Assembly: GCA_021785195.1 (NCBI GenBank)
Contig: JAJYGC010000005.1
Location: 99,809-163,808, forward strand
Reading direction: 5' to 3'
Origin: Nitrospirota bacterium
GTDB taxonomy: Bacteria; Nitrospirota; Leptospirillia; Leptospirillales; Leptospirillaceae
Length of the DNA stretch: 64,000 bases
The number at the start of each line of letters is the position of its first letter. The stretch's first letter is position 1. The notes beneath the pieces are model-generated. The model saw only the letters and a list, made by a program, of their open reading frames with translations. It ran no database searches and was not told the DNA's origin. The translations under genes were made by a program, and so were the position numbers. Positions 51,327-64,000 of the stretch are shown one piece after another.

Positions 51327-51919
51327 AAAGAGTCAACCACTGAGTTTTTTTGGGTCAAGCGCCTGAAATTTTCAAGAATTCTCTTCCCTTCAAGCGTCAG
51401 GATCGACTCCGGGTGGAACTGGACACCCCATACAGGGAGGCTCCGGTGAGACAAGCCCATGATTTCATTTTCAGCGGTCCAGGCGGTCACTTTCAGGTCA
51501 TCCGGCAAGGATTCGGGGGAGACGACAAGGGAATGGTACCGGGTGGCCTCAAAAGGATTCGGAATTCCCTCGAACAGATCCAACCCATCATGATGAACCA
51601 TGGATGTCTTTCCATGCATCAGTCGACCCGCACGCACCACATTCCCCCCAAAAACATCGCCAATGACCTGATGTCCAAGACAAACACCCAACAGGGGAAT
51701 GACCCCCGACAATTCACGAACGACATTCTGGCATACCCCGGATTGGGATGGGTCGCCGGGACCCGGGGAAAGGACGATTCCCTCATATCCCCTTTTCCGA
51801 ATTTCCGAACAGGAAATCTGGTCATTTCTGACGACATCCACCTCACAGCCCAGCTCCCAGAAGTACTGGACAAGGTTGTACGTGAACGAATCATAGTTGT
51901 CGATCATCAAAAGAGCCAT
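51323..51919 (-). CDS. trpG: Anthranilate synthase glutaminase component
   Basis: [41 protein letters not shown]. Confidence 0.94.
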
Positions 51920-53412
51920 GGACCCTCTTCACCATTGGCAATCCTCAATGCCCTCATCATCGCTCCGGCTTTCATCTGGACTTCCCGGTCCTCTTTCTCC
52001 GGGATCGAATCCGCCACAATTCCCGCACCCGCCTGGAAGAACGCATCCTTTCCATTGAGAAAGATCGACCTGATGGCAATGGCCAGGTCACAATCCCCCG
52101 TCAGGGAAAGAGTCCCGATCGCCCCCGCATAGGGGCCCCTCCGCATATGCTCAAGTTCTTCAATGATCTCCATCGCCCGAATTTTTGGAGCACCAGACAA
52201 TGTTCCCGCAGGATAGACCGCCCGAATGACATCAAACATATCCTTGCCAGGCTCCAGCTTCCCTTCCACATGGGAGACGATGTGAATGACGTGGGAATAT
52301 TTTTCGAGAGTCATCATTTCGCTAACACAGACAGTACCCTTCTGGGCCACCCGACCCACATCGTTCCTTCCAAGGTCAACAAGCATGACATGCTCGGCAC
52401 GTTCCTTCGGGTCCGCCAGCAGTTGTCTGGAGTTTTCCTCATCTTCAGCGGTGATCCCGGTTCTCCTGACCGTCCCCGCGATCGGTCTCAGGTCAACCTT
52501 CCCTCCCCTCACACGAACCAGAAGCTCCGGAGAAGAACCGACCAGGGCCCGACCCCCTTCCTCGATCAAGAACAGGTAGGGAGAGGGATTGATCGCACGC
52601 AGGACCCGATAAAGGTCGAGGGGATTTCCCTCAAACCGAAGGGAGAATCTCTTCGAAAGCACGATCTGGAAGATATCTCCGGCACGAATGTGTTCCTGTG
52701 CCTCAAGAACATTTTTTTTGAACTCTTCGGAGGTTGGAGTCTCATGAAACTTGAGCGCAGGAGCTTCCACCGGAGAAGCAGGATTGAACGGAGTCTTTCT
52801 GACAGAGTCCACGAAGCCTGTGAGCTCCGATTCAGCTCTTTCAAAAACTTCATCCGGATCCTCTCCCAAAGCGGGCTCAATCCATGTTACGATCTGAACT
52901 TTCTGTGACACATGATCAAAGACCACCAGAAATTCCGGGAAAACGAAGAAGAGATCGGGAAACTCTTCCTGTGCGGGAAGCCTTCCGGGAAGATGCTCAA
53001 ACGTCCTGACCATATCGTAGGACAGATACCCGACCAGACCGCCATTCACCCCTTCCGGCAAGCCTCCGGGATCGATCTCCAACTGATAAAGCTCCTTCCG
53101 GAGCATGTCCAGAAGATCACCTTTCCGTTCAGTCTGGGTCGTATTTCCGTCATTGGCCAGGCAGGTGACCTTCAATCCCTGGTCTATCCGCCCTTCAAAC
53201 CTGAACCGGACCCCTGACCCGACATAGGAAAAACGGCCCCATTTTTCCCCTCCTACAACGCTTTCCAGAAGGAATCCCTTTTTTCCATCAGGAAGGGCCG
53301 CATAAAACAGGACCGGAGTCAGGGAATCCGAAAGGATTTCACAACAAACCGCCACCCACCGGTACTTTTTTGCACTTTCCCTAAAATCGGGACGGGTCGT
53401 CAGGACCTTCAT
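51907..53412 (-). CDS. trpE: Anthranilate synthase component I
   Basis: [41 protein letters not shown] 53412 overlaps upstream stop (ATGA). Confidence 0.95.
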
Positions 53413-54830
53413 GCCAACTTCATTTCCTTCAGCCGTCTCCACAAGGTGGAGCGACCCATTGAAAGCCTCCGGGCAACCTCGGACACATTTCCACCGGAAA
53501 GTTCCATGGCTCTGCGAATCAGTTCCAGCTCAACATACTTGAGGGGTTCCCTTTCAAGAAGAGCGGCCTCAAAAAAAGAGGACTGGGCCTGACCAGGAAT
53601 CATATCCCCGGGAAGGTGCCGAACATCGATTCGACTCTCATTGCATAAAAGGGCCGAATGCTCAAGGATGTTCTGGAGCTCACGAATATTCCCCGGATAG
53701 TGGTAGTTCAACAGAACCTGCATCGCATCCGAAGTCAGGCCCTGAATGTTTTTTCCCATTTCAACGTTGAACCGGTCGACAAAGGACTGAATCAGCAACG
53801 GAAGATCCTCCTGTCGCTCCCGAAGGGGAGGCAAGGTGATCGGGATGACCCGAAGACGATAATAGAGGTCTTTCCGAAACTCCCCCAACTCCATGGCCTG
53901 TTTCAGATCCCGGTTGGTCGCCGCGATGACCCGGACATCCACCTTGACCGTTTTTGTTCCCCCGACGCGTTCAAACTCTTCCTCCTGCAAGACCCTCAAA
54001 AGCTTGACCTGCATGGTCGGGGAAATTTCACCGATTTCATCCAGAAACAACGTTCCGCCCGAAGCCAGCTCAAACCGCCCGAGGCGGCTCTGAACAGCCC
54101 CGGTGAATGCTCCCCTGACATGACCAAACAATTCCGATTCCAAAACCCCTTCGGAGAGGGCCGCACAATTCAGCTTGATGAATGGGCCTTCCCGGCGGGG
54201 ACTGTTTTCATGCAGGGCATGAGCCACCAGCTCTTTTCCCGTGCCGCTTTCCCCTTCGATCAAAACAGTTGATTTGCTTTGGGCGATGACCGGCAGGAGG
54301 TCAAAAAGTTCCTGCATTTTTTCGCTGCGGCCAATGATCCTCCCAAAAGAATACCGGCCTTTTAACTCCTCTTTCAGCGCCACGATCTGAGTGACATCAT
54401 GAAAGATTTCAACTCCCCCAAACACCTTTCCACCCGCATCCTTCAACAATGCCGTATTTAAGCGGAGGACCCGCTTTCTTCCGGTGGAATCAACGAGGGA
54501 AATCTCAAAATTGCGCAGGGGCTCGCCGGTCTCAACCGTCTTTTCTAGAACGCACCGTGCCTGACATTCCGATGAATTCATGACTTTTCGGCAATCGAAG
54601 GGACCATTGAGCTCATTCCGGACTTTCAGGATTTCACGTGCCGCACGGTTCATATACAGCACTTTTTTGTCCAGACCGATCGCAACGACACCTTCCTCAA
54701 GGGAATCAAGAATAACCTGAGGGTCTGCGGGGGAAACACCGTGAGGAAAGGTCCCCAAAGCCCCTCCATCCGCCACGGGCAAATCAACCTTGTTATTGAA
54801 AGGCCGAAGAGAAACCGGATCGGCTTTCAC
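53409..54830 (-). CDS. Sigma54-dependent transcriptional activator with N-terminal PAS
   Basis: GESGTGKELVAHALHENSPR, GAFTGA, FIS-type HTH ELSGGNVSEVARRLSMGRSTLWRRLKEM; PAS segment, no obvious receiver domain. Confidence 0.9.
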   Translation of the reverse strand: MKADPVSLRPFNNKVDLPVADGGALGTFPHGVSPADPQVILDSLEEGVVAIGLDKKVLYMNRAAREILKVRNELNGPFDCRKVMNSSECQARCVLEKTVETGEPLRNFEISLVDSTGRKRVLRLNTALLKDAGGKVFGGVEIFHDVTQIVALKEELKGRYSFGRIIGRSEKMQELFDLLPVIAQSKSTVLIEGESGTGKELVAHALHENSPRREGPFIKLNCAALSEGVLESELFGHVRGAFTGAVQSRLGRFELASGGTLFLDEIGEISPTMQVKLLRVLQEEEFERVGGTKTVKVDVRVIAATNRDLKQAMELGEFRKDLYYRLRVIPITLPPLRERQEDLPLLIQSFVDRFNVEMGKNIQGLTSDAMQVLLNYHYPGNIRELQNILEHSALLCNESRIDVRHLPGDMIPGQAQSSFFEAALLEREPLKYVELELIRRAMELSGGNVSEVARRLSMGRSTLWRRLKEMKLA

Positions 54831-55029
54831 CTGAAGCTCCTTTCCGATAGACAGAAAGCGCCGAGACAGGGCAGGTCACAATGCAGTACCGGCAAAGGAT
54901 GCAGTCCCCGATACCACTCTCTCCCGATAGATCCAGAACGCCCGTGGGACACAGTTCCTCACACTCACCACATTGATTGCAGCGCGCGTGATCCAGGTGG
55001 ACCCGCCCTTTTGCCACCCTCACCATCAT
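54793..55029 (-). CDS. 2x[4Fe-4S] ferredoxin
   Basis: CNQCGECEELCPTG and CILCRYCIVTCPVS. Confidence 0.8.
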   Translation of the reverse strand: MMVRVAKGRVHLDHARCNQCGECEELCPTGVLDLSGESGIGDCILCRYCIVTCPVSALSVYRKGASGESRSGFSSAFQ

Positions 55030-55068
55030 ATCACACCACCCTGGTGCCAGAATTCAAAATGACCTCCC

Positions 55069-55614
55069 TTAAAAGGAGCGATCATTGAGTCGGGAATAGA
55101 GGAGGAACCCTGCCACCGTTTTTGCATCGCTCAGACTTCCATCCTGTATCCTTTTCCAAACCTCGTCGGGAGTCAATAACAGAACCTCCTCTATTTCTTC
55201 TCCCTCGTCGGGATGGCTCTTTTTCAGATCGCCCCCCTCGGAAAGGAAGAGATGGATCCGTTCATTACAGAATCCTGGCGTCGTCCAGATCGAGGACATC
55301 AACGTCAGGATTCCTCCCGAAAGTCCCGTCTCTTCTTCAAGTTCCCGTTCGGCCGCAATTCGTAAATCCTCACCAGGTTCCACCTTCCCTGCCGGAATTT
55401 CAAGGATTGATTGCCCGACCGACGGACGGAACTGCCGAATCAGAAGGATCTTTGAACGGTATACAGGGACAACCGCGACACCTTCTCCGAACAAGACCGA
55501 CTCGTGCGTTCTTGTCTGGCCTGCGGGACCCGGGATCTGTCGGATAGACAGAGAGATCCTTTTGCCGGAATAAACAATCCCATCCTCATCCAACCGTTTT
55601 TTTTCTTCAGACAC
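55069..55614 (-). CDS. NUDIX hydrolase (ADP-ribose pyrophosphatase-like)
   Basis: Nudix box GKVEPGEDLRIAAERELEEETG. Confidence 0.92.
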   Translation of the reverse strand: MSEEKKRLDEDGIVYSGKRISLSIRQIPGPAGQTRTHESVLFGEGVAVVPVYRSKILLIRQFRPSVGQSILEIPAGKVEPGEDLRIAAERELEEETGLSGGILTLMSSIWTTPGFCNERIHLFLSEGGDLKKSHPDEGEEIEEVLLLTPDEVWKRIQDGSLSDAKTVAGFLLYSRLNDRSF

Positions 55615-55722
55615 GAATGCCCTTTCCAGAATTCGGGATCGCAGGGGATTGTTTTTTGACTCAGCGGGAACCGACCAGAAACCGGGATCAGGGGAGGTAT
55701 AGATCCGGACGCTTTAGAGCGA

Positions 55723-56334
55723 TTACCGAACCATATTCCGATTGCGGGTACGATTGATGTAAAAGAAAACCCCCAGCAAAGCGAGCACCAGAAACGACCC
55801 GATCCCCGAAAGAGCTCCCACAGAGGCACGAAAACCATAGGAAGGGCTCCGGGCAGGGCTAAAGATCACAAACAGCATGGCGTATACCGAATATGCCGTG
55901 ATGACGGAAAAAATAAAACAAAGAAGCGTAACCCATCCAAGCCGACGATGCACCATGGGATTTCGGGTCAGGATCCGTTCCCCATTTTCAATCGAAGTTG
56001 AGATGAACCCATTGAACACGACAATTCCTGTCAAGACAAGGGCCGCCGTCGATACCAGGGAATGAAAGATAATCACGGGATAATAAATCAGATATTTCAC
56101 ATAATCCGGTCCCCCAAAACCAATAATCCCGACAATGTACTGCTGGGCAAGGTACATCAGGAACCATGCGGCAACCAGGACGGAGGAAACAAGCATCGTA
56201 TTGTGATGGAGGGAGCCGCGATGGCGACGGGCAAAGTACCCCCCAAATCCCAGGAAACTGAAAACGATCGTTTCCGATGTCACCGTCAGATCCCACCAGA
56301 AATCTGCTTTTGTCCCGAGGAACCCATGCATCAT
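55723..56334 (-). CDS. DUF420-like multi-TM protein
   Basis: MMHGFLG..., LHHNTMLVSS..., HRRLGWVTLLCFIFSVITAY in TM contexts. Confidence 0.65.
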   Translation of the reverse strand: MMHGFLGTKADFWWDLTVTSETIVFSFLGFGGYFARRHRGSLHHNTMLVSSVLVAAWFLMYLAQQYIVGIIGFGGPDYVKYLIYYPVIIFHSLVSTAALVLTGIVVFNGFISTSIENGERILTRNPMVHRRLGWVTLLCFIFSVITAYSVYAMLFVIFSPARSPSYGFRASVGALSGIGSFLVLALLGVFFYINRTRNRNMVR

Positions 56335-56358
56335 TTCTCTTATCCTTTCATTGTGCCA

Positions 56359-56700
56359 TTAGGAAAGCGGGGGGGAGGATTCGCCACTTTCAAGTGCCCG
56401 GCAAACCAGATACCAGATCAGAAAAGGAACGATGCCCGCAAATAGAAATACCATCGCAAACAGGAGGGAAAACCCCATGAACGCATCTCCTGGGGATTTC
56501 CCAACAATCCGGAAAAATGCAAAAAGGAACCGCCCACCGAGCAGATTCGGGACCATGAACGTGTACCCGAATCCCCAGAATGCAAAGAGTGATGTCAGCA
56601 GGGGATGGCGTTTGGCAAGCGCAATAATGGAAAGCTTTTGGGGCTGCATCCCGGTATCGGTTTCAGGATTTTGCTTTTTCAAGATCACGGATGCGGGCAA
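56359..56700 (-). CDS. Small membrane protein, unknown
   Basis: ORF with two TM segments in operon context. Confidence 0.5.
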   Translation of the reverse strand: MPASVILKKQNPETDTGMQPQKLSIIALAKRHPLLTSLFAFWGFGYTFMVPNLLGGRFLFAFFRIVGKSPGDAFMGFSLLFAMVFLFAGIVPFLIWYLVCRALESGESSPPLS

Positions 56701-57130
56701 ACTCCTTCAGCAGAAGATTAAGCTCCTCTTTCGACAGTGAATTCCTGCGAATGGTCGCCTGGATCCTCCGCTTGTCGATTGTCTCACCCCATACCCCCAG
56801 TATGGTTCTCCCACCCTGAAACTGAAGCTTTCGAACGACCTCGTCCGCATCTCCATTTTTCCATTCAAAGGTGATGGACCTATCCGAGACCCGAATGGAT
56901 TTCAGCGACCGCCTTGCCATCAGGAGGCAATGATTGATCACTGAAGTAAATCCCGAGAACAGGGCCAACCAGAATGAAAAGAAAAAAAGATAGAAGAGAG
57001 GGGAGCCATGATCCTTCGTATAGTACTCATAACTCAGAACAGCTGACATGAAAAGCGCGGCACCATGAAAAAGTCCGCTCCAAATGGCGCCCTTCTTATC
57101 CGGGCTCAATACAAATCGTTCATCAGTCAT
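56663..57130 (-). CDS. Membrane protein, unknown (two TM plus cytoplasmic domain)
   Basis: GAALFMSAVLSYEYYTK and FYLFFFSFWLALFSGFTSVI segments; operon context. Confidence 0.55.
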   Translation of the reverse strand: MTDERFVLSPDKKGAIWSGLFHGAALFMSAVLSYEYYTKDHGSPLFYLFFFSFWLALFSGFTSVINHCLLMARRSLKSIRVSDRSITFEWKNGDADEVVRKLQFQGGRTILGVWGETIDKRRIQATIRRNSLSKEELNLLLKEFARIRDLEKAKS

Positions 57131-57205
57131 AGCGCGAACCTAGCATACCCCTTTCACATTTGCAATCTTGTTGGATTTCCTGGGTTATCCATGGAATCAA
57201 GATGC

Positions 57206-58540
57206 TCAGGAATTCCCGGACGGCGGGAGAAAATAGGAAGCATCCTGACGCAATGTTTTGTCTTTTTTATCGACCATTTCGACCGTGACCGAAAAAGGAT
57301 GTATCCCCACTCCAAGCACCTGGCCGTTCCGGATCTTCAGGGGGATGGACACCTGGCTTCCCGAGGGGATGGAAATGGTCTTTTCGGTCCAGTTTACTGA
57401 GCTTCCCGGCAGACCCACCTCCATCAGCCTGTATTGTTCCGATCTTGGCGTTTTGTTGGATAGGCGCACACTGTAAAGATCGAGGTGCCCCGGGACCTGG
57501 CTAAGCGTCATGTGAAAGGGCATATAGGTAAAAATCCCATAGATGAAGAGTGAAAGAGGGATCAAACTGAACGATCCTGTCAGGACAAACCTTGTAACGA
57601 CCGGAGACAGGAGGTTCAGTCGCCTTTTCCCGTCCTTCCCCACCCGAACCCCGTTAAAATGGAATGTCAAAAGGGAGGGAACCCCTCTTTTTTCTGAATA
57701 GTCCTCGCATGTAATGACACATTCGCCACAATTGATGCACCGTGTAAAATTCTTGGTGTCCCGTGGATCGATGTCTACAATACAGGATTTTACGCAGAGG
57801 TTGCATCCCGTGCATTCTTCCCGCCTGGCATCATCAAATGCCACTTTCATCGTCCCTTCCGATTTGAAGAAATGTTGCCAGAGTGGGTAGGGACAGACCC
57901 AATTGCACCAATAATGGCGAATCAAAAAAAGGTTCAGCATCATGACTGCGCTGATGCCGCCGATGACCCAGAAAGTCTGGTATAGGTTGGATCCCGTCAC
58001 AATGTCCTTCCAGAGGAGGGCTGGAGGGATGAAATACCCGGCGAATACGACCCCGACCACAAGGGAAATCAGGGAGACGACCACGATGAAAACGGACCAT
58101 TCCCTAATTCCGACTTTGGGGGAAGACTTTTGGGAAGTGTGGGTCAACGTGTCAAGGCCGAGGTATTTCTTTTGGGGACCAAAGATTTTCTTCACGAGGA
58201 AATCGACGAATTCGGAAAGGGTGTTCTGGATGCACGCCCATCCGCAAAAAACCATTCCAAGAACTGAGTAGATTGCCGCTGCTCCAGAAATGAGAAAAAT
58301 CCAGAATGGAAGAATCAGGAAAAAGTCACTCCACCAGACCTGATAGCCCGCAACAATGAAACGTCCTGTCGAAAGGTCTATCCTGAAAAGTCCCGTGAAG
58401 GGCAAAAGGACAATGAATGCCAGAACCGCCCCTTGGACCACATACCGGATCGATGTGACGCGGAAGTATTTCCGGAACCCTTCCCGCTTGTGGATTTCAG
58501 GCATCGGAATCAGGGATGGATTCTTGACTGTCGCTGACAT
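57206..58540 (-). CDS. CcoG/FixG/RdxA-like cbb3 oxidase accessory Fe-S membrane protein
   Basis: FCGWACIQNTLSEFVD, CTGCNLCVKSCIVDIDPRD, CINCGECVITC, C-terminal Ig-like domain. Confidence 0.85.
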   Translation of the reverse strand: MSATVKNPSLIPMPEIHKREGFRKYFRVTSIRYVVQGAVLAFIVLLPFTGLFRIDLSTGRFIVAGYQVWWSDFFLILPFWIFLISGAAAIYSVLGMVFCGWACIQNTLSEFVDFLVKKIFGPQKKYLGLDTLTHTSQKSSPKVGIREWSVFIVVVSLISLVVGVVFAGYFIPPALLWKDIVTGSNLYQTFWVIGGISAVMMLNLFLIRHYWCNWVCPYPLWQHFFKSEGTMKVAFDDARREECTGCNLCVKSCIVDIDPRDTKNFTRCINCGECVITCEDYSEKRGVPSLLTFHFNGVRVGKDGKRRLNLLSPVVTRFVLTGSFSLIPLSLFIYGIFTYMPFHMTLSQVPGHLDLYSVRLSNKTPRSEQYRLMEVGLPGSSVNWTEKTISIPSGSQVSIPLKIRNGQVLGVGIHPFSVTVEMVDKKDKTLRQDASYFLPPSGNS

Positions 58541-58854
58541 CTCAGCACTCCTCATCTATTACATAAATATTGAAGAGGACCCTATTTCCGGTCACACCCA
58601 TTCAAACCGACACCCGGAAGCGAAGGACACTCCGGTGGGCATCAGGTTGATTCCCCTGAAGTTTTCTCGACGAATTCCGGTTCACGGAAACCATTCTCCC
58701 GGTGATTCGACCGGAAGGGGGCACCGAGTGCGCACCGGTTTCATGGCCCGGCACTTCGCCTGGTCCCAGAAATCAGGTTATCCGTGGCTTCTTTCCTTGC
58801 GCTTTATATCAGGAGAAAACCGTTACTAAAACTGGCATCAGGGAAGGGAGTCGC

Positions 58855-59157
58855 TTACTCTTCCGATATATCGTCCTTGCCAAATTTGTTCGCCTCAATT
58901 TCATGACGCCAGTACCATGAAACGCCCAGATACAGGAAGATCGGTGCCAATACCCCCAGCAGGAAGACAAGGTAGGCCACCCAAGGAACGCCCAAGGTCA
59001 CGTGCACATATCGTGGCATGTAGGCAAAAGACCGCCCTGGAAAAACAAAAACCCCCAGAAAAGCGAGCCCTACCCCAATCCTTGCCACCCTGTTCAGGGA
59101 TCTTCCGATCAAGCCATTTCCACCAGGCTCACGGGGTTGTTCCGAAAGCAGCCACAT
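58855..59157 (-). CDS. Small two-TM protein
   Basis: ATG 59157 overlaps end of upstream gene; TM segments VGLAFLGVFVF and WVAYLVFLLGVLAPIFLYL. Confidence 0.55.
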   Translation of the reverse strand: MWLLSEQPREPGGNGLIGRSLNRVARIGVGLAFLGVFVFPGRSFAYMPRYVHVTLGVPWVAYLVFLLGVLAPIFLYLGVSWYWRHEIEANKFGKDDISEE

Positions 59158-59698
59158 TGTCCACTTCCCTCTCATTTGCCGGAATCTGCTTGGTTCCCTT
59201 GGCAACCTGGACAGTACTGTAAATGTTATAGGCAAATATGAAGTTGGCAAACAGGACCAATAAGCCAAACATGCCAACCATTTCCATGTAGGGCGTTTCA
59301 ACAGGCTTGATATTGGCCACATCCCCATGAAGGAGGATCATTCCACCCTTGTAACCGGCAATGCTGAATGCCAGAACCATTCCCACCAAGCCTATATTAT
59401 GTGTCCAGAAATGGATCCTCATCAACCGATAGCTGTAAAGCGGTACCTGATAGAGACGCGGAACGATGTAGTAGACGGTCCCAAAGATCGCCATCTCAAC
59501 CCAGCCCAAAAGATTGATATGGGTATGTCCCAGGACAATCAGGTCCGAAGGTCCACCTGCTCCGGCCTGTACAAAATTCCGGAACTGTTCCACACCACCC
59601 ATGATGGCTCCCCAGGAAAACCCGATGATGGCATAAAGAAGGCACGCATAATAGAATTTCATGGTGTAATCCTTGATCGCCATTTCCCTTTCCATCAT
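59129..59698 (-). CDS. Short heme-copper oxidase subunit I-like membrane protein (paralog A)
   Basis: LGHTHINLLGWVEMAIFGTVYYIVPRLY, RIHFWTHNIGLVGM; only ~190 aa. Confidence 0.7.
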   Translation of the reverse strand: MMEREMAIKDYTMKFYYACLLYAIIGFSWGAIMGGVEQFRNFVQAGAGGPSDLIVLGHTHINLLGWVEMAIFGTVYYIVPRLYQVPLYSYRLMRIHFWTHNIGLVGMVLAFSIAGYKGGMILLHGDVANIKPVETPYMEMVGMFGLLVLFANFIFAYNIYSTVQVAKGTKQIPANEREVDNVAAFGTTP

Positions 59699-59744
59699 TT
59701 CCTCCTCGCAAACAGTTTCCTAGTTTCCTTGTCAGACAGTCACC

Positions 59745-60854
59745 CTATTTTACGACATCCCGACATGTCCGAAACCCAAAAAAGTCCGACGCATAATTTG
59801 GCCAGGTCGGATTCCGGGCTGATGTCCGGGCGCTATACTGGTCACTCTTCCAGGATCCCCCACGAAGAACCTTGTAGACTCTCCCCTTCACCTGCTCCAG
59901 GGTTCCTGTTGCATCCACCTTGTATGCCAGGAATCTTGCCTTATTTGCAGTGTTTCCCGGGTATGGGGCATAACTGGATCCGGTCCATTCGAAAACATTC
60001 CCGGCCATGTCGTACAAGCCATATGGGCTGATCCCGGCTGGATAACGGGTTACAGGGGTCGTATCCCCCACTGTATAGTTGGCATTGGCCCTTCGAGGAT
60101 CCCAGGCATTTCCCCATGGCCAAAGACGGCTATCGGATCCCCTGGCAGCCTTCTCCCACTCTTCTTCCGTGCAAAGACGACTTCCTTCCCAGTGGGCGTA
60201 ATCCACCGCGTTATCATAACTGACAAAAGTCACTGGATGATCACCCTTGGAAACCGGGTAAGAGCGGTTCTTCCAACCCGGAGGAGCAATGTAATGGTTG
60301 CTGTCGATGAAACGCTTGTATTCCTTGTTGGTAACCAGCGTTTTCTTGATAAAATACCCGGGAAGAAAGACTTTATGGATGGGCTTTTCATCAAAATTGG
60401 CAAAGGGGTCTTCACTTCCCATCACAAACGGGCCAGGAGGAACATAGACATATCCTATTGGGGGAGTAATCCCATGGGTCACGACAACAATCTGTGCCGT
60501 GGCCTTGAGATCCTTTCCGAAGGTCCCGTTCGCTTCCTTCACCACAGGCAACGAGGCAGACAACCTCGGAACGACCCCTCCCATCGGACGAAAATTACCG
60601 GGTTCCTTCCCATGGGTGCGAACGCTTTCCTGTGACAGACGGTTAATCCTGTTTGAAGCGAGCCCCACAATCTGTATGGCCCCCGCAATCAGGATCAATA
60701 CGACCAAAGTGACCGAAATGGCTTTCCAGGGAAGCCCCCAGGGGGTCATTTCCTCAAGCGTCAGATCATCATCCGAGGCAAAATCCCTCCGACTTTTCGT
60801 TTCTCCCTCTTTCACATCTTTTTCCAAACCGGTTCCGGGCGTTGTCTCGTTCAT
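59745..60854 (-). CDS. TM-anchored FGE/SUMF1-fold protein lacking the catalytic Cys pair
   Basis: N-terminal TM; PPGPFVMGSEDPFANFDEKPIHKVFLPGYFI, RLCTEEEWEKAARG, GNVFEWTGSSY, VLRGGSW...FFGFRTCRD. Confidence 0.88.
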   Translation of the reverse strand: MNETTPGTGLEKDVKEGETKSRRDFASDDDLTLEEMTPWGLPWKAISVTLVVLILIAGAIQIVGLASNRINRLSQESVRTHGKEPGNFRPMGGVVPRLSASLPVVKEANGTFGKDLKATAQIVVVTHGITPPIGYVYVPPGPFVMGSEDPFANFDEKPIHKVFLPGYFIKKTLVTNKEYKRFIDSNHYIAPPGWKNRSYPVSKGDHPVTFVSYDNAVDYAHWEGSRLCTEEEWEKAARGSDSRLWPWGNAWDPRRANANYTVGDTTPVTRYPAGISPYGLYDMAGNVFEWTGSSYAPYPGNTANKARFLAYKVDATGTLEQVKGRVYKVLRGGSWKSDQYSARTSARNPTWPNYASDFFGFRTCRDVVK

Positions 60855-61408
60855 TGGAATTTTGAACCTTCCTTAAGCGGTTTCACTGACGGGACGATCG
60901 AAGTTTCTTCCTTCCGAAAATACGTCACAAAAACATTCAGGACAAAGGTCCAGTGTGCAAGACCCATCAGGAGGGCCGAAAAAACAAATCCAAATCGATG
61001 GTAAGGCTGATAATGGGCCCGGGCGACCGGGTAGACAATCCCTTCATCCAACATCCGGTTTCCCTCAAGGATACCGAAACACAGCAATACCACATAAAAA
61101 CTTCCGACTCCGGCAACCATCAGGATAAAATTGGCTTGCCCAAGCCAATGGCTCCAGATGTTTCTTCCAAGCATCCTAGGAAGAAGGTAATAAACCATTG
61201 CCATCACGATTGAAACCACGCCCCCAATCAAGTTGATGTGGGCGTGCGCCAATGGATCGACAAGGTGTCCAGCCTGCCCAGTAGAATGAATCCAGTGGCG
61301 AAGGCGGGGGGTGGATTGGAGGAAACCCTGAAGCGTTCCGACAAACAGGCAAAATACGCCAAAAAGAATAAACTTAAGACCCAGACGGTCACTCACTTCT
61401 GAAGTCAT
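60851..61408 (-). CDS. Short heme-copper oxidase subunit I-like membrane protein (paralog B)
   Basis: LAHAHINLIGGVVSIVMAMVYYLLPRML, HYQPYHRFGFVFSALLMGLAHW; 185 aa. Confidence 0.7.
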   Translation of the reverse strand: MTSEVSDRLGLKFILFGVFCLFVGTLQGFLQSTPRLRHWIHSTGQAGHLVDPLAHAHINLIGGVVSIVMAMVYYLLPRMLGRNIWSHWLGQANFILMVAGVGSFYVVLLCFGILEGNRMLDEGIVYPVARAHYQPYHRFGFVFSALLMGLAHWTFVLNVFVTYFRKEETSIVPSVKPLKEGSKFQ

Positions 61409-61872
61409 TGTTCGTTTCCCCTTTCTGAGGACGATGGCCGCCCCGCTTTCAAGGATTCCCGAAGACGGGCTTCCCTTCTACGCTTGACTTCCCGTCGATT
61501 TCTGAGCGCTTCCCCGACCCAGCCCCCAAGGAGGGAGACTTCAGGGACAGTGATGAAAAAGATCATCATGAAGGGTGCGGTCGGCATCCCAAGATCATGC
61601 TGGCCGGCATGCTCTGAAGCCAGCAAATAGGCGATAAGGATATACAGCATCGGCGGAATGGCCGCCCAGAATTTACCCCATTTTCCGACCCAATAGCCCA
61701 CAACAAAGGAAACCAGAGTCGGAACAAGAAGGTAAGTCCAGAGGATACCGCCACCGAAGAGATGATGGAAAGCCCCTTCAGTCAGGTGAAAGGACTGGTC
61801 TATGCCCCAAAAAAGAAGGGTTCCGACGACCAGGGCAATCGGAATCCGTAAAACTGGTTTCAGGTCAAGCAA
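61405..61872 (-). CDS. Integral membrane protein, unknown (~4 TM)
   Basis: Hydrophobicity of translation; 4-nt overlap with downstream gene. Confidence 0.6.
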   Translation of the reverse strand: MLDLKPVLRIPIALVVGTLLFWGIDQSFHLTEGAFHHLFGGGILWTYLLVPTLVSFVVGYWVGKWGKFWAAIPPMLYILIAYLLASEHAGQHDLGMPTAPFMMIFFITVPEVSLLGGWVGEALRNRREVKRRREARLRESLKAGRPSSSERGNEQ

Positions 61873-61894
61873 GTTTGTCTCCGGGCAGTCAGGA

Positions 61895-62101
61895 TTACTT
61901 ACGGTCCTTCATCTCTTCCGCTTTCATTTCCTCAATCTTATGCCTTCTTTCGTCATCTTCTTCCTGAAAAATGACATATTTGATATTTTCATCAAACTGG
62001 CCGTTTTTATAGGCCCAATAAATCCCGATCACAATGATCACCAGAGATACCAAGCCAGTCGCGGTCCAAAGATAAGCTACAATTCCCTCAGGCAATTTCA
62101 T
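61895..62101 (-). CDS. Small single-TM protein
   Basis: 68 aa, TATGLVSLVIIVIGIYWAY then charged tail (CcoQ-like architecture). Confidence 0.55.
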   Translation of the reverse strand: MKLPEGIVAYLWTATGLVSLVIIVIGIYWAYKNGQFDENIKYVIFQEEDDERRHKIEEMKAEEMKDRK

Positions 62102-62127
62102 GTCATCTCCTTCAAAATAAGACCGGT

Positions 62128-62565
62128 TTATTGCGGGGGCTTCGGATAATTGGGGGAACCAGGCAACGATTTGAGGCTTATCATCAAATCGATCAGCTTT
62201 TTCTTGTCTGCTGGAGGCATCTCAGAAAAATTGGTTGCGAACAGACCATCGTGCCGCGTATTCGGAACAATTTTTTTGGGATCCGCCAGGTATTGTGTCA
62301 ACCATTCCCTAGTCCGTCTAGTCCCTTCTCCGTCCATATCCGGCCCCGCAAAATCACCCACTCCATAGATTACATGACAATCCCTGCAACCAGACCGTTG
62401 ATAGACCTTATAACCTGCTTCAGTCTGCTTATTGAAAACATAAATATCATTCGTTGACCAGAAATTGATGATATGGAATTGTCCCAGAACATACAGAATC
62501 ATCACAACAGAAATCATTAGTCCCGCTAAAAAAAAGACAACCCTTTCCCCTGTTTTCATAGGCAC
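62128..62565 (-). CDS. Membrane-anchored monoheme cytochrome c
   Basis: N-terminal TM, CRDCH heme motif, distal Met candidate FSEMPP. Confidence 0.85.
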   Translation of the reverse strand: MPMKTGERVVFFLAGLMISVVMILYVLGQFHIINFWSTNDIYVFNKQTEAGYKVYQRSGCRDCHVIYGVGDFAGPDMDGEGTRRTREWLTQYLADPKKIVPNTRHDGLFATNFSEMPPADKKKLIDLMISLKSLPGSPNYPKPPQ

Positions 62566-62571
62566 CCCAAC

Positions 62572-62778
62572 CTAAACCAGAATCTTCAGGACCAGCTGGA
62601 CAATTGCAAATGCCAACACGACCAGCACGCCAAGGAAACTGAGGACAACAATCACCTGTTCCCCTTTTTTCAACTTGGAAAACGGCCCTATGATGTAGCG
62701 GGACATAACAATAAAGACAAATACGGCAGCTATCAGGAAGGTAAAGATGACAATTGAAACAGACATTTTTATATGCAT
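62572..62778 (-). CDS. Small two-TM protein
   Basis: 68 aa immediately upstream of the cytochrome c gene, downstream of a promoter. Confidence 0.55.
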   Translation of the reverse strand: MHIKMSVSIVIFTFLIAAVFVFIVMSRYIIGPFSKLKKGEQVIVVLSFLGVLVVLAFAIVQLVLKILV

Positions 62779-62794
62779 GGAGGCCTCTGAAACC

Positions 62795-62823
62795 AGTATA
62801 GGGCTGCCTTAGAACCGGATCAA
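62795..62823 (-). promoter_or_regulatory. Putative sigma70 promoter of the accessory oxidase-like operon
   Basis: Minus strand TTGATC-17 nt-TATACT. Confidence 0.6.
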
Positions 62824-62910: not shown

Positions 62911-63015
62911 CTATTCTGGCCTTCTCTCATCGATAAAAAACGAGTAGATCAACCCTAGACAGAGCATGATCATCGTTATTACCCAAAACACATAAGGGCT
63001 ATTTAAATTCCACAA
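62911..63015 (-). CDS. Candidate 34-aa single-TM CcoQ-like small protein (not in ORF track)
   Basis: TTG start with GGAGGT 7 nt upstream (alternative GTG 63024); (M)WNLNSPYVFWVITMIMLCLGLIYSFFIDERRPE*. Confidence 0.5.
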   Translation of the reverse strand: MWNLNSPYVFWVITMIMLCLGLIYSFFIDERRPE

Positions 63016-63061
63016 TTTGCCCACCTCCTCGAGAAAGACTTCCCGATCTATAATGGCCTAT

Positions 63062-63394
63062 TTAAAAGTCCTTCGCCACTTCCGTCTTCTTCAAAAGTAA
63101 ACCCATCCAAGTGTAAAAAACAGTCACATAGGTCGAATTGATCACATAACCCTGATCCCACCATGGACGACCCAAAGTCTTGCTAAGATGGGCCTTCAGA
63201 ACCGGAACGCCCTGGATCAACCAGTGATGGGGATGCCCAGGGTACTGAGGACGGGCACCAAAAAGAGGGAATGTCAACAACTCAGCAGTGACGACGGTCA
63301 TGGTCAAAATCAGGATAAGCGCAGCTGGAATATTGTTTGTTCCTTCTAGAATCCCATCAAACCGCTCGGTTAACATTTCATCAATGTCAGCCAT
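63062..63394 (-). CDS. Two-TM protein of the cbb3 oxidase locus, unknown
   Basis: 110 aa with ALILILTMTVVTAELLTFPLFG and VINSTYVTVFYTWMGLLL segments; follows ccoO-like gene. Confidence 0.6.
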   Translation of the reverse strand: MADIDEMLTERFDGILEGTNNIPAALILILTMTVVTAELLTFPLFGARPQYPGHPHHWLIQGVPVLKAHLSKTLGRPWWDQGYVINSTYVTVFYTWMGLLLKKTEVAKDF

Positions 63395-63481: not shown

Positions 63482-64000
63482 CTACTTCAAACTGGACATG
63501 TAATCCGCCAGGGCATCCAGGTCCTTGCGACGAAGGTAGTTGAATGCCGGCATCATGGACTTGGGCTGGACCGCACGGGGATTGGCATGGTGAACAAGAT
63601 GCCATCCCTTGATCGGCAGCCGGCTTCCCACATGAAGCAAGTCGGGCGCCTTCCGGTCCGAACCGAACACCGTGGGACTTTCCCCCACAAAGTCGGCCGC
63701 CGTCGGAGGAGCACCAAAATACTGCCAGTCCTGGGTCTGCTCCGGAAGAAGCGTATGACACCACCAGCATCCCTCCCGGATAAAGACGACCTTTCCCTTC
63801 CCGATCATCGTTGGCCGATTGTCCCCGGTCATCATCGGGTCCTCCAGCGTCCAACCACTTTCCGTTCCGTAATCCTTCGCCTTCTGAACCGCCGTGGCCG
63901 TCGGTGGAATCTTCGCCATCTGCAGCGTCGGGAACAGGATTGTGATGGACAGAGTCACCACAAACAGGGTTGCGATCATCATCGTGCCGAATTTGTACTC
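63482..64000 (-). CDS. cbb3-type cytochrome oxidase subunit II (CcoO/FixO-like), 5' part outside window
   Basis: FIREGCWWCHTLLPEQTQDWQYFG heme c motif, VFGSDRKAPDLLHVGSRLPIKGWHLVHHANPRAVQPKSMMPAF; frame open to window end. Confidence 0.85.
   Translation of the reverse strand, partial: EYKFGTMMIATLFVVTLSITILFPTLQMAKIPPTATAVQKAKDYGTESGWTLEDPMMTGDNRPTMIGKGKVVFIREGCWWCHTLLPEQTQDWQYFGAPPTAADFVGESPTVFGSDRKAPDLLHVGSRLPIKGWHLVHHANPRAVQPKSMMPAFNYLRRKDLDALADYMSSLK

Follow-up and report, generated by a model that had tools for sequence, protein, structure and literature searches.

Introduction

Pei, Li, Kinch, and Grishin (2014; Protein Sci 23:1220) reportedly described single-unit homologues of heme-copper oxidases (HCO) with four transmembrane (TM) helices, which resemble the last four HCO helices and for which homo- or heterotrimers were proposed. 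The 2014 work on this class is cited in PMC4602095 and PMC11218638. Two proteins of this kind, named here G and I, are encoded in a minus-strand operon of a Nitrospirota bacterium (family Leptospirillaceae; assembly GCA_021785195.1, contig JAJYGC010000005.1). The DNA analyzed, hereafter the window, comprises 64,000 nucleotides at the end of this 164-kb contig from a 1.4-Mb genome that is 64% complete. Judged by its gene content, the operon is the missing part of the only cbb3-type oxidase of this genome, whose catalytic subunit CcoN is encoded elsewhere.

Both proteins resemble the described class in having four TM helices, in being closest to the last four helices of subunit I, and in being encoded by separate genes. 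What differs is that two paralogues are tied here to one cbb3 clade along with a protein of the formylglycine-generating enzyme (FGE) fold, and that a three-unit fusion exists. A wholly undescribed system, for which the preliminary description saw a candidate in this locus, is not supported; the four-helix proteins already form a known class. NnrS and NorB are likewise members of the HCO superfamily but have 12 helices in one chain, and there is no comparable operon here.

With the canonical cbb3 oxidases encoded by ccoNOP(Q)/SGH (e.g., Pseudomonas stutzeri, PDB entry 3mk7), the oxidase under discussion shares the CcoN histidine ligands and tyrosine, CcoO, and the CcoS- and CcoG-like genes. 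It differs from them in having a heme-less anchor and monoheme cytochromes instead of a diheme CcoP, in the change of E323 to Q, in the extra proteins F, G, H, I, and J and a 37-amino acid (aa) peptide, and, in the Leptospirillum family, in the detachment of the ccoN gene. In Ca. Tenderia electrophaga, a highly expressed cbb3-like “complex IV-2” that shares synteny with Mariprofundus ferrooxydans has been reported (PMC5371394), and a “distal” cbb3 is known in Zetaproteobacteria (PMC7029218). Both are probably the same oxidase type as here, the loci being presumed identical; the text of these papers names neither short HCO subunits nor an FGE-fold partner. No paper found in the literature search lists G, I, the FGE-fold protein, or the fusion of three units among the parts of this oxidase, and a search for an FGE–cbb3 gene cluster gave no match.

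Link of the Operon to a cbb3-Type Oxidase

The sole full-length CcoN of the genome is encoded at positions 55391–56788 of the same contig, ~104 kb from the cluster and outside the window. Its alignment with 3mk7 spans 428 residues (E = 1.3e-63). It keeps the six histidine ligands and the helix-VII tyrosine, and belongs to the C family by its histidines in helices II, VI, VII (HH), and X (HxH). The first gene of the operon, A (63482..63982, minus strand, as are all the genes below), encodes a CcoO-like membrane monoheme cytochrome c of 166 aa (PF02433 FixO, 70.5 bits), which is 80–94% identical across the Leptospirillum family. In two relatives, 99% and 96% complete (G005 and G006), a full CcoN and a CcoO are each encoded once only, CcoO by gene A; this is also the only over-cut-off CcoO in genome G000, while a second CcoO is present in G003. 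Primers for a “cbb3” quantitative PCR marker of L. ferriphilum have been published (PMC6695575), and the forward primer matches gene A of this related genome with 3 mismatches; the marker is therefore likely located in gene A, to judge from this alignment.

No diheme CcoP was recognized in the cluster. Protein B (63062..63394; 110 aa) is an anchor-only, CcoP-like protein without a heme motif, and its match to PF14715 FixP_N is weak (18.0 bits, E = 0.0024, under the cut-off of 24.9); D (62128..62565) is a TM-anchored monoheme cytochrome c with a CxxCH motif (PF00034, 24.2 bits, over the cut-off; FixO, 28.8 bits, just under it). Because a diheme CcoP is missing, the oxidase is classed as a cbb3 variant and not as a canonical member. 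Two further genes resemble assembly genes: E (61895..62101) encodes a CcoS/FixS-like small membrane protein with the motif QFDENIKY (PF03597 FixS, 21.8 bits against a cut-off of 23.1), and K (57206..58555) encodes a CcoG-like polyferredoxin membrane protein, which has the CcoG domains (Fer4_18, Fer4_5), yet reaches only 131 bits with TIGR02745 against the NCBIfam equivalog cut-off of 317.

The membrane heme and electron-transfer context proposed in the preliminary description is thus borne out, while its term “accessory” does not suit a cluster that holds CcoO, CcoP-anchor-like, CcoS-like, and CcoG-like genes of the only cbb3-type oxidase in the genome. The same gene context bears on the possibility that G and I are HCO homologues that sense NO or O2 or detoxify NO, as has been proposed for many such proteins; Pei et al. 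are cited as tying HCO homologues to denitrification and detoxification in PMC11218638. Gas sensing had been offered as one option for this locus as well, but nothing positive speaks for it here: the neighbours are oxidase structural and assembly genes, and among the genes recognized in the clusters inspected, there is no NO-response regulator and none for denitrification. We regard this explanation as very improbable.

G and I as Single-Unit HCO Homologues

Proteins G (60851..61408; 185 aa) and I (59129..59698; 189 aa) match the PF00115 COX1 profile with 53.2 and 52.2 bits, respectively, well over the cut-off of 34.8, and both cover only positions 305–413 of its 436; I in addition matches NCBIfam ccoN (62.5 bits) over positions 341–466 of 474. 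From these profile positions, G and I correspond to the last third of subunit I, i.e., helices IX–XII, with the HxH motif in helix X. AlphaFold2 models built from ten-sequence alignments reached pLDDT values of 79.6 for G and 69.4 for I. In a Foldseek search of the PDB, the G model retrieved only HCO and nitric oxide reductase chains on top (the first ten with a probability of 1.00 and a query TM-score of 0.58–0.67), and the first four hits of the I model were all CcoN chains of cbb3 oxidases (query TM-score 0.53–0.69). The E-values are modest (about 0.002–0.1), as expected for four helices, but the fold and the sequence match agree. On this evidence, G and I are real HCO homologues, in the form of separate single-unit proteins, and the HCO relationship suspected earlier for these two genes holds. 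At ~190 aa, they are indeed too short for a whole binuclear site.

The conserved histidine segment had initially been taken for a helix-II type, whereas the Pfam and NCBIfam positions place it in helix X. This reading is explained by the three-fold repeat of subunit I itself: compared with CcoN, the I profile finds all three repeats, more weakly so at helix II and around helix VI. In the alignment with the I profile, the helix-II histidine of CcoN falls under the first histidine of HxH.

In all separate homologues inspected, H55 and H57 of G (within an invariant DPLAHAHxN), H48 of G, and H58, H60, H96, and H100 of I (within HxHxNLLGW and HFWxHN) are invariant; two other histidines of G, H137 and H152, are confined to Nitrospirota. 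The view of G and I as truncated or decayed CcoN was rejected in light of this strong constraint, the invariant HxH, and an identity of 46–86% over genera and families. Shorter HCO-homology proteins, in frames of ~135–150 aa and with 36–44% identity to I, were also seen at five loci from other Nitrospirota families (L024, L025, L027, L029, and L033).

Gene Order across Bacterial Groups

Relatives of G, which were found by scanning GTDB genomes with the G alignment, occur in Nitrospirota, Zetaproteobacteria (M. ferrooxydans PV-1 and M. erugo), and Gammaproteobacteria. Every Leptospirillum-family genome inspected has the order A-B-C-D-E-F-G-H-I-J-K, often extended by M-N-O, and a second Nitrospirota family keeps the core E-D-F-G-H-I-K, with 46–53% identity in G and I. 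In Zeta- and Gammaproteobacteria, the first part of the cluster reads cytochrome c - I - (thioredoxin-like) - M-like protein ... CcoN - CcoO - B - C and is followed by E - D - F - H - J - a 131-aa protein - a fused major facilitator superfamily (MFS)/spermidine-synthase-like protein - K ... G. A single 20-kb block holds G as well as I, CcoN, CcoO, B, C, E, D, F, H, J, and K; the PV-1 cluster is split over two contigs. The fused transporter/spermidine-synthase-like protein (~870–900 aa; L125:5343-7979, L126:11178-13892, and L130:6584-9196) stands between J and the CcoG-like gene, and the one tested gave no Pfam match. Loci of the Arenicellales type have the order cytochrome c - cytochrome c - G - a 72-aa protein - CcoN - CcoO - B - C - D - E - D.

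In the two Nitrospirota families, the conservation of gene order is far beyond chance. The co-conservation supposed at the outset is supported across genomes, and the gene orders of the different groups indicate that the oxidase parts have been shuffled yet kept as a set. Alternatively, G and I could join D, F, and H in a cytochrome b/c complex of its own, for instance one for reverse electron flow from high-potential cytochromes to quinone in Fe(II) oxidisers, which would share no more than co-regulation with the oxidase. The second Nitrospirota family would fit such a view, as CcoN and CcoO lie together there and E-D-F-G-H-I-K at another place, and many of the named carriers are Fe(II) oxidisers. 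On the other hand, the Leptospirillum family has CcoO with G and I and CcoN apart, while the Proteobacteria have all of them together; since these groups divide the parts differently, the split follows no functional line. Besides, bc1 serves reverse flow in Leptospirillum (PMC5772234). We therefore consider a separate complex unlikely.

Divergent CcoN Clade and Its Co-Occurrence with G

In an IQ-TREE phylogeny, for which the program warned of long branches, 29 CcoN sequences from G-bearing genomes form one clade (support 100/100), which is separate from the canonical CcoN sequences, 3mk7 among them. All its members carry Y-x5-HH and HxH. Where the Glu323 motif (P. stutzeri numbering) was caught, the clade has Q (QGGFQQT or IQGPFQAT) and canonical CcoN shows EGP; QGP is also found in three other Nitrospirota CcoN. 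Two side observations concern CcoN diversity. Zetaproteobacterial members of the clade (L126, L128, and L130) have HVH in helix II at about residue 64 (RQVHVHAVIFGW), so that their catalytic subunit contains HxH twice. A third CcoN type with HVHMGTMGW and QGPSQ or QGPTQ, seen in other Nitrospirota (L026, L028, and L031), branches off from both the clade and the canonical group.

G accompanies the clade members of Zetaproteobacteria (Mariprofundus), Gammaproteobacteria, and Nitrospirota, and I usually does so too. Of the Nitrospirota genomes with a completeness of 90% or more, 8 possess both the clade CcoN and G, 102 possess neither, and none is discordant. In the 78 zetaproteobacterial genomes, 37 have both, 31 neither, 4 CcoN only, and 6 G only (Fisher p = 1.7e-11, uncorrected for kinship); several of the discordant cases are small assemblies and probably incomplete. 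The idea that the operon is unrelated to a terminal oxidase was dismissed on the combined strength of gene order, co-occurrence with CcoN, and the CcoO census.

Three-Unit Fusion and a Possible Role of G and I

Three G units are joined in one protein of 716–722 aa at three loci (L107:5118-7280, L143:11169-13337, and L144:10652-12802), the single units scoring 103–137 bits each in the latter two. The fusion gene lies downstream of CcoN and CcoO in the same operon (the L107 contig starts just before CcoO) and is carried by 4 of the 47 genomes of its order, in one as a fragment. Its HxH motif reads QTH or QSH in unit 1, HAH in unit 2, and HAQ in unit 3. The counterpart of the first histidine of HxH in CcoN is the helix-II histidine, and that of the second is the helix-VI histidine, as judged from the spacings of 19 and 17 residues, counted by eye, to the aromatic/Pro motif that follows and, for helix II, from the profile alignment; the helix-VI assignment is ambiguous by one residue. 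If each pair is made of the second histidine of unit n and the first of unit n+1, the fusion keeps exactly two full pairs, and the third pair loses both members. Two heme sites in a three-fold body of the HCO type would fit such a pattern, which, however, is suggestive only.

One explanation is that G and I are biogenesis factors that hold heme b (or copper) on its way to CcoN and stay outside the finished enzyme. Their place among CcoS-like and CcoG-like assembly genes, a fold that mimics one third of CcoN, and the transcription of G apart from the structural genes in some cases all accord with a role in assembly. It is harder to reconcile with the 12 helices of the three-unit fusion, which resembles a built subunit, and with the retention of HxH in every separate homologue inspected; moreover, where a canonical cbb3 is also present, G goes with the divergent CcoN and not with the canonical one. 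A role in biogenesis alone thus appears rather unlikely.

The explanation that we favour, with fair confidence, is a divergent cbb3-type (C-family) oxidase whose non-catalytic subunits and assembly factors are the products of the operon and to which G and I belong as four-helix HCO homologues, most likely in the form of an HCO-like module. We infer that G and I would assemble with each other, perhaps in several copies each, into a three-fold membrane module, in which a b-type heme may be held between the first histidine of the HxH of one unit and the second histidine of a neighbouring unit. The module would add a path for transmembrane electron transfer or electron storage beside CcoN/CcoO, and D and A would relay electrons on the periplasmic side. 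A heme-bearing trimer of G and I is a tentative suggestion, to which we give somewhat less than even credence. It is doubtful whether one may go as far as to propose that a whole cbb3 clade of iron oxidisers and related chemolithotrophs has a second, catalytically silent HCO-shaped (hetero)trimer or fusion with bis-His b hemes that acts as an electron wire.

Several observations weigh against assigning G and I to the oxidase in this way. CcoN lies outside the operon in Leptospirillum-family genomes. The inspected stretch of the Arenicellales-type loci contains no I or H, though G is present, which means that I is not always needed. With Q in the clade at the place of the canonical E323, coupling may differ. 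As to the fusion, if two of its six histidines were lost at random, about one outcome in five would show the same pattern, and the three sequences are related and known from one lineage only.

Other Genes of the Operon

H (59745..60854) is a TM-anchored protein of the FGE/SUMF1 fold (PF03781, 179.8 bits). An alignment of 16 homologues shows that the catalytic cysteine positions of GGSW-C-C are lost: most have GGSWKSD..S, and those of family f2 have GGCWKCD..S. An active FGE was thus excluded, as the active-site cysteine pair after GGSW is missing, and, given the fold without this pair, H is probably a structural periplasmic domain. The 4-TM protein F (61405..61872) has no Pfam match; it was considered as a third HCO unit completing 12 helices and rejected, having no conserved histidine in its alignment and no HCO match.

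All the open reading frames listed in the preliminary description are present on the minus strand. The operon start, however, had been set at a promoter of its own at 62823–62795, which leaves out the co-conserved A, B, and a small gene at 62911..63024 that was absent from the earlier list; the promoter-like site was found again, but such sites are no commoner than in shuffled sequences. Above gene A, the contig ends, and the window with it. The small gene has a GTG start and encodes 37 aa with one TM helix and the motif NxPxx...IYSFFID. A matching small frame lies in the B–C gap of 10 out of 10 loci examined, Mariprofundus included, with IYGLFVD in place of the IYSFF motif in one of them, and a terminator-like stem (62906–62890) follows directly 3′ of the gene.

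B adjoins CcoO in Zeta- and Gammaproteobacteria too. C (62572..62778) is a two-TM protein of 68 aa whose position is kept in the Leptospirillum family and in Zeta- and Gammaproteobacteria, and an ortholog of D was found in all clusters. J (58855..59157) is a signal/TM protein with an uncertain start, the part conserved in its alignment beginning near YMPRYVHVTLG; in Proteobacteria, it adjoins H. The 2-TM protein M (56663..57130) matches L125 (4e-07), and its homologue adjoins I in Gammaproteobacteria. N (56359..56700), a small membrane protein, and O (55723..56334), a DUF420 membrane protein (PF04238, 83.2 bits), are each kept in only part of the Leptospirillum family. After the operon, at 51907–55614, there are genes for a Nudix protein, a ferredoxin, a sigma-54 regulator, and trpE; several genera of the Leptospirillum family share this order.

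Implications

The 12-helix oxidase is thought to stem from a trimer of four-helix units. If the interpretation of G and I as an HCO-shaped module is true, this module would be a present-day example of such an ancestral trimer, located inside a terminal oxidase. The proposed trimer origin of HCO subunit I becomes directly testable on living proteins, namely G, I, and the natural fusion, all of them tied to one oxidase clade. For the organisms themselves, the operon supplies defined candidate partners for the terminal oxidase, whose subunit composition has so far been given as “ccoNOP-like”, in the respiratory chains of Leptospirillum, a chief iron oxidiser of bioleaching, and of Mariprofundus.

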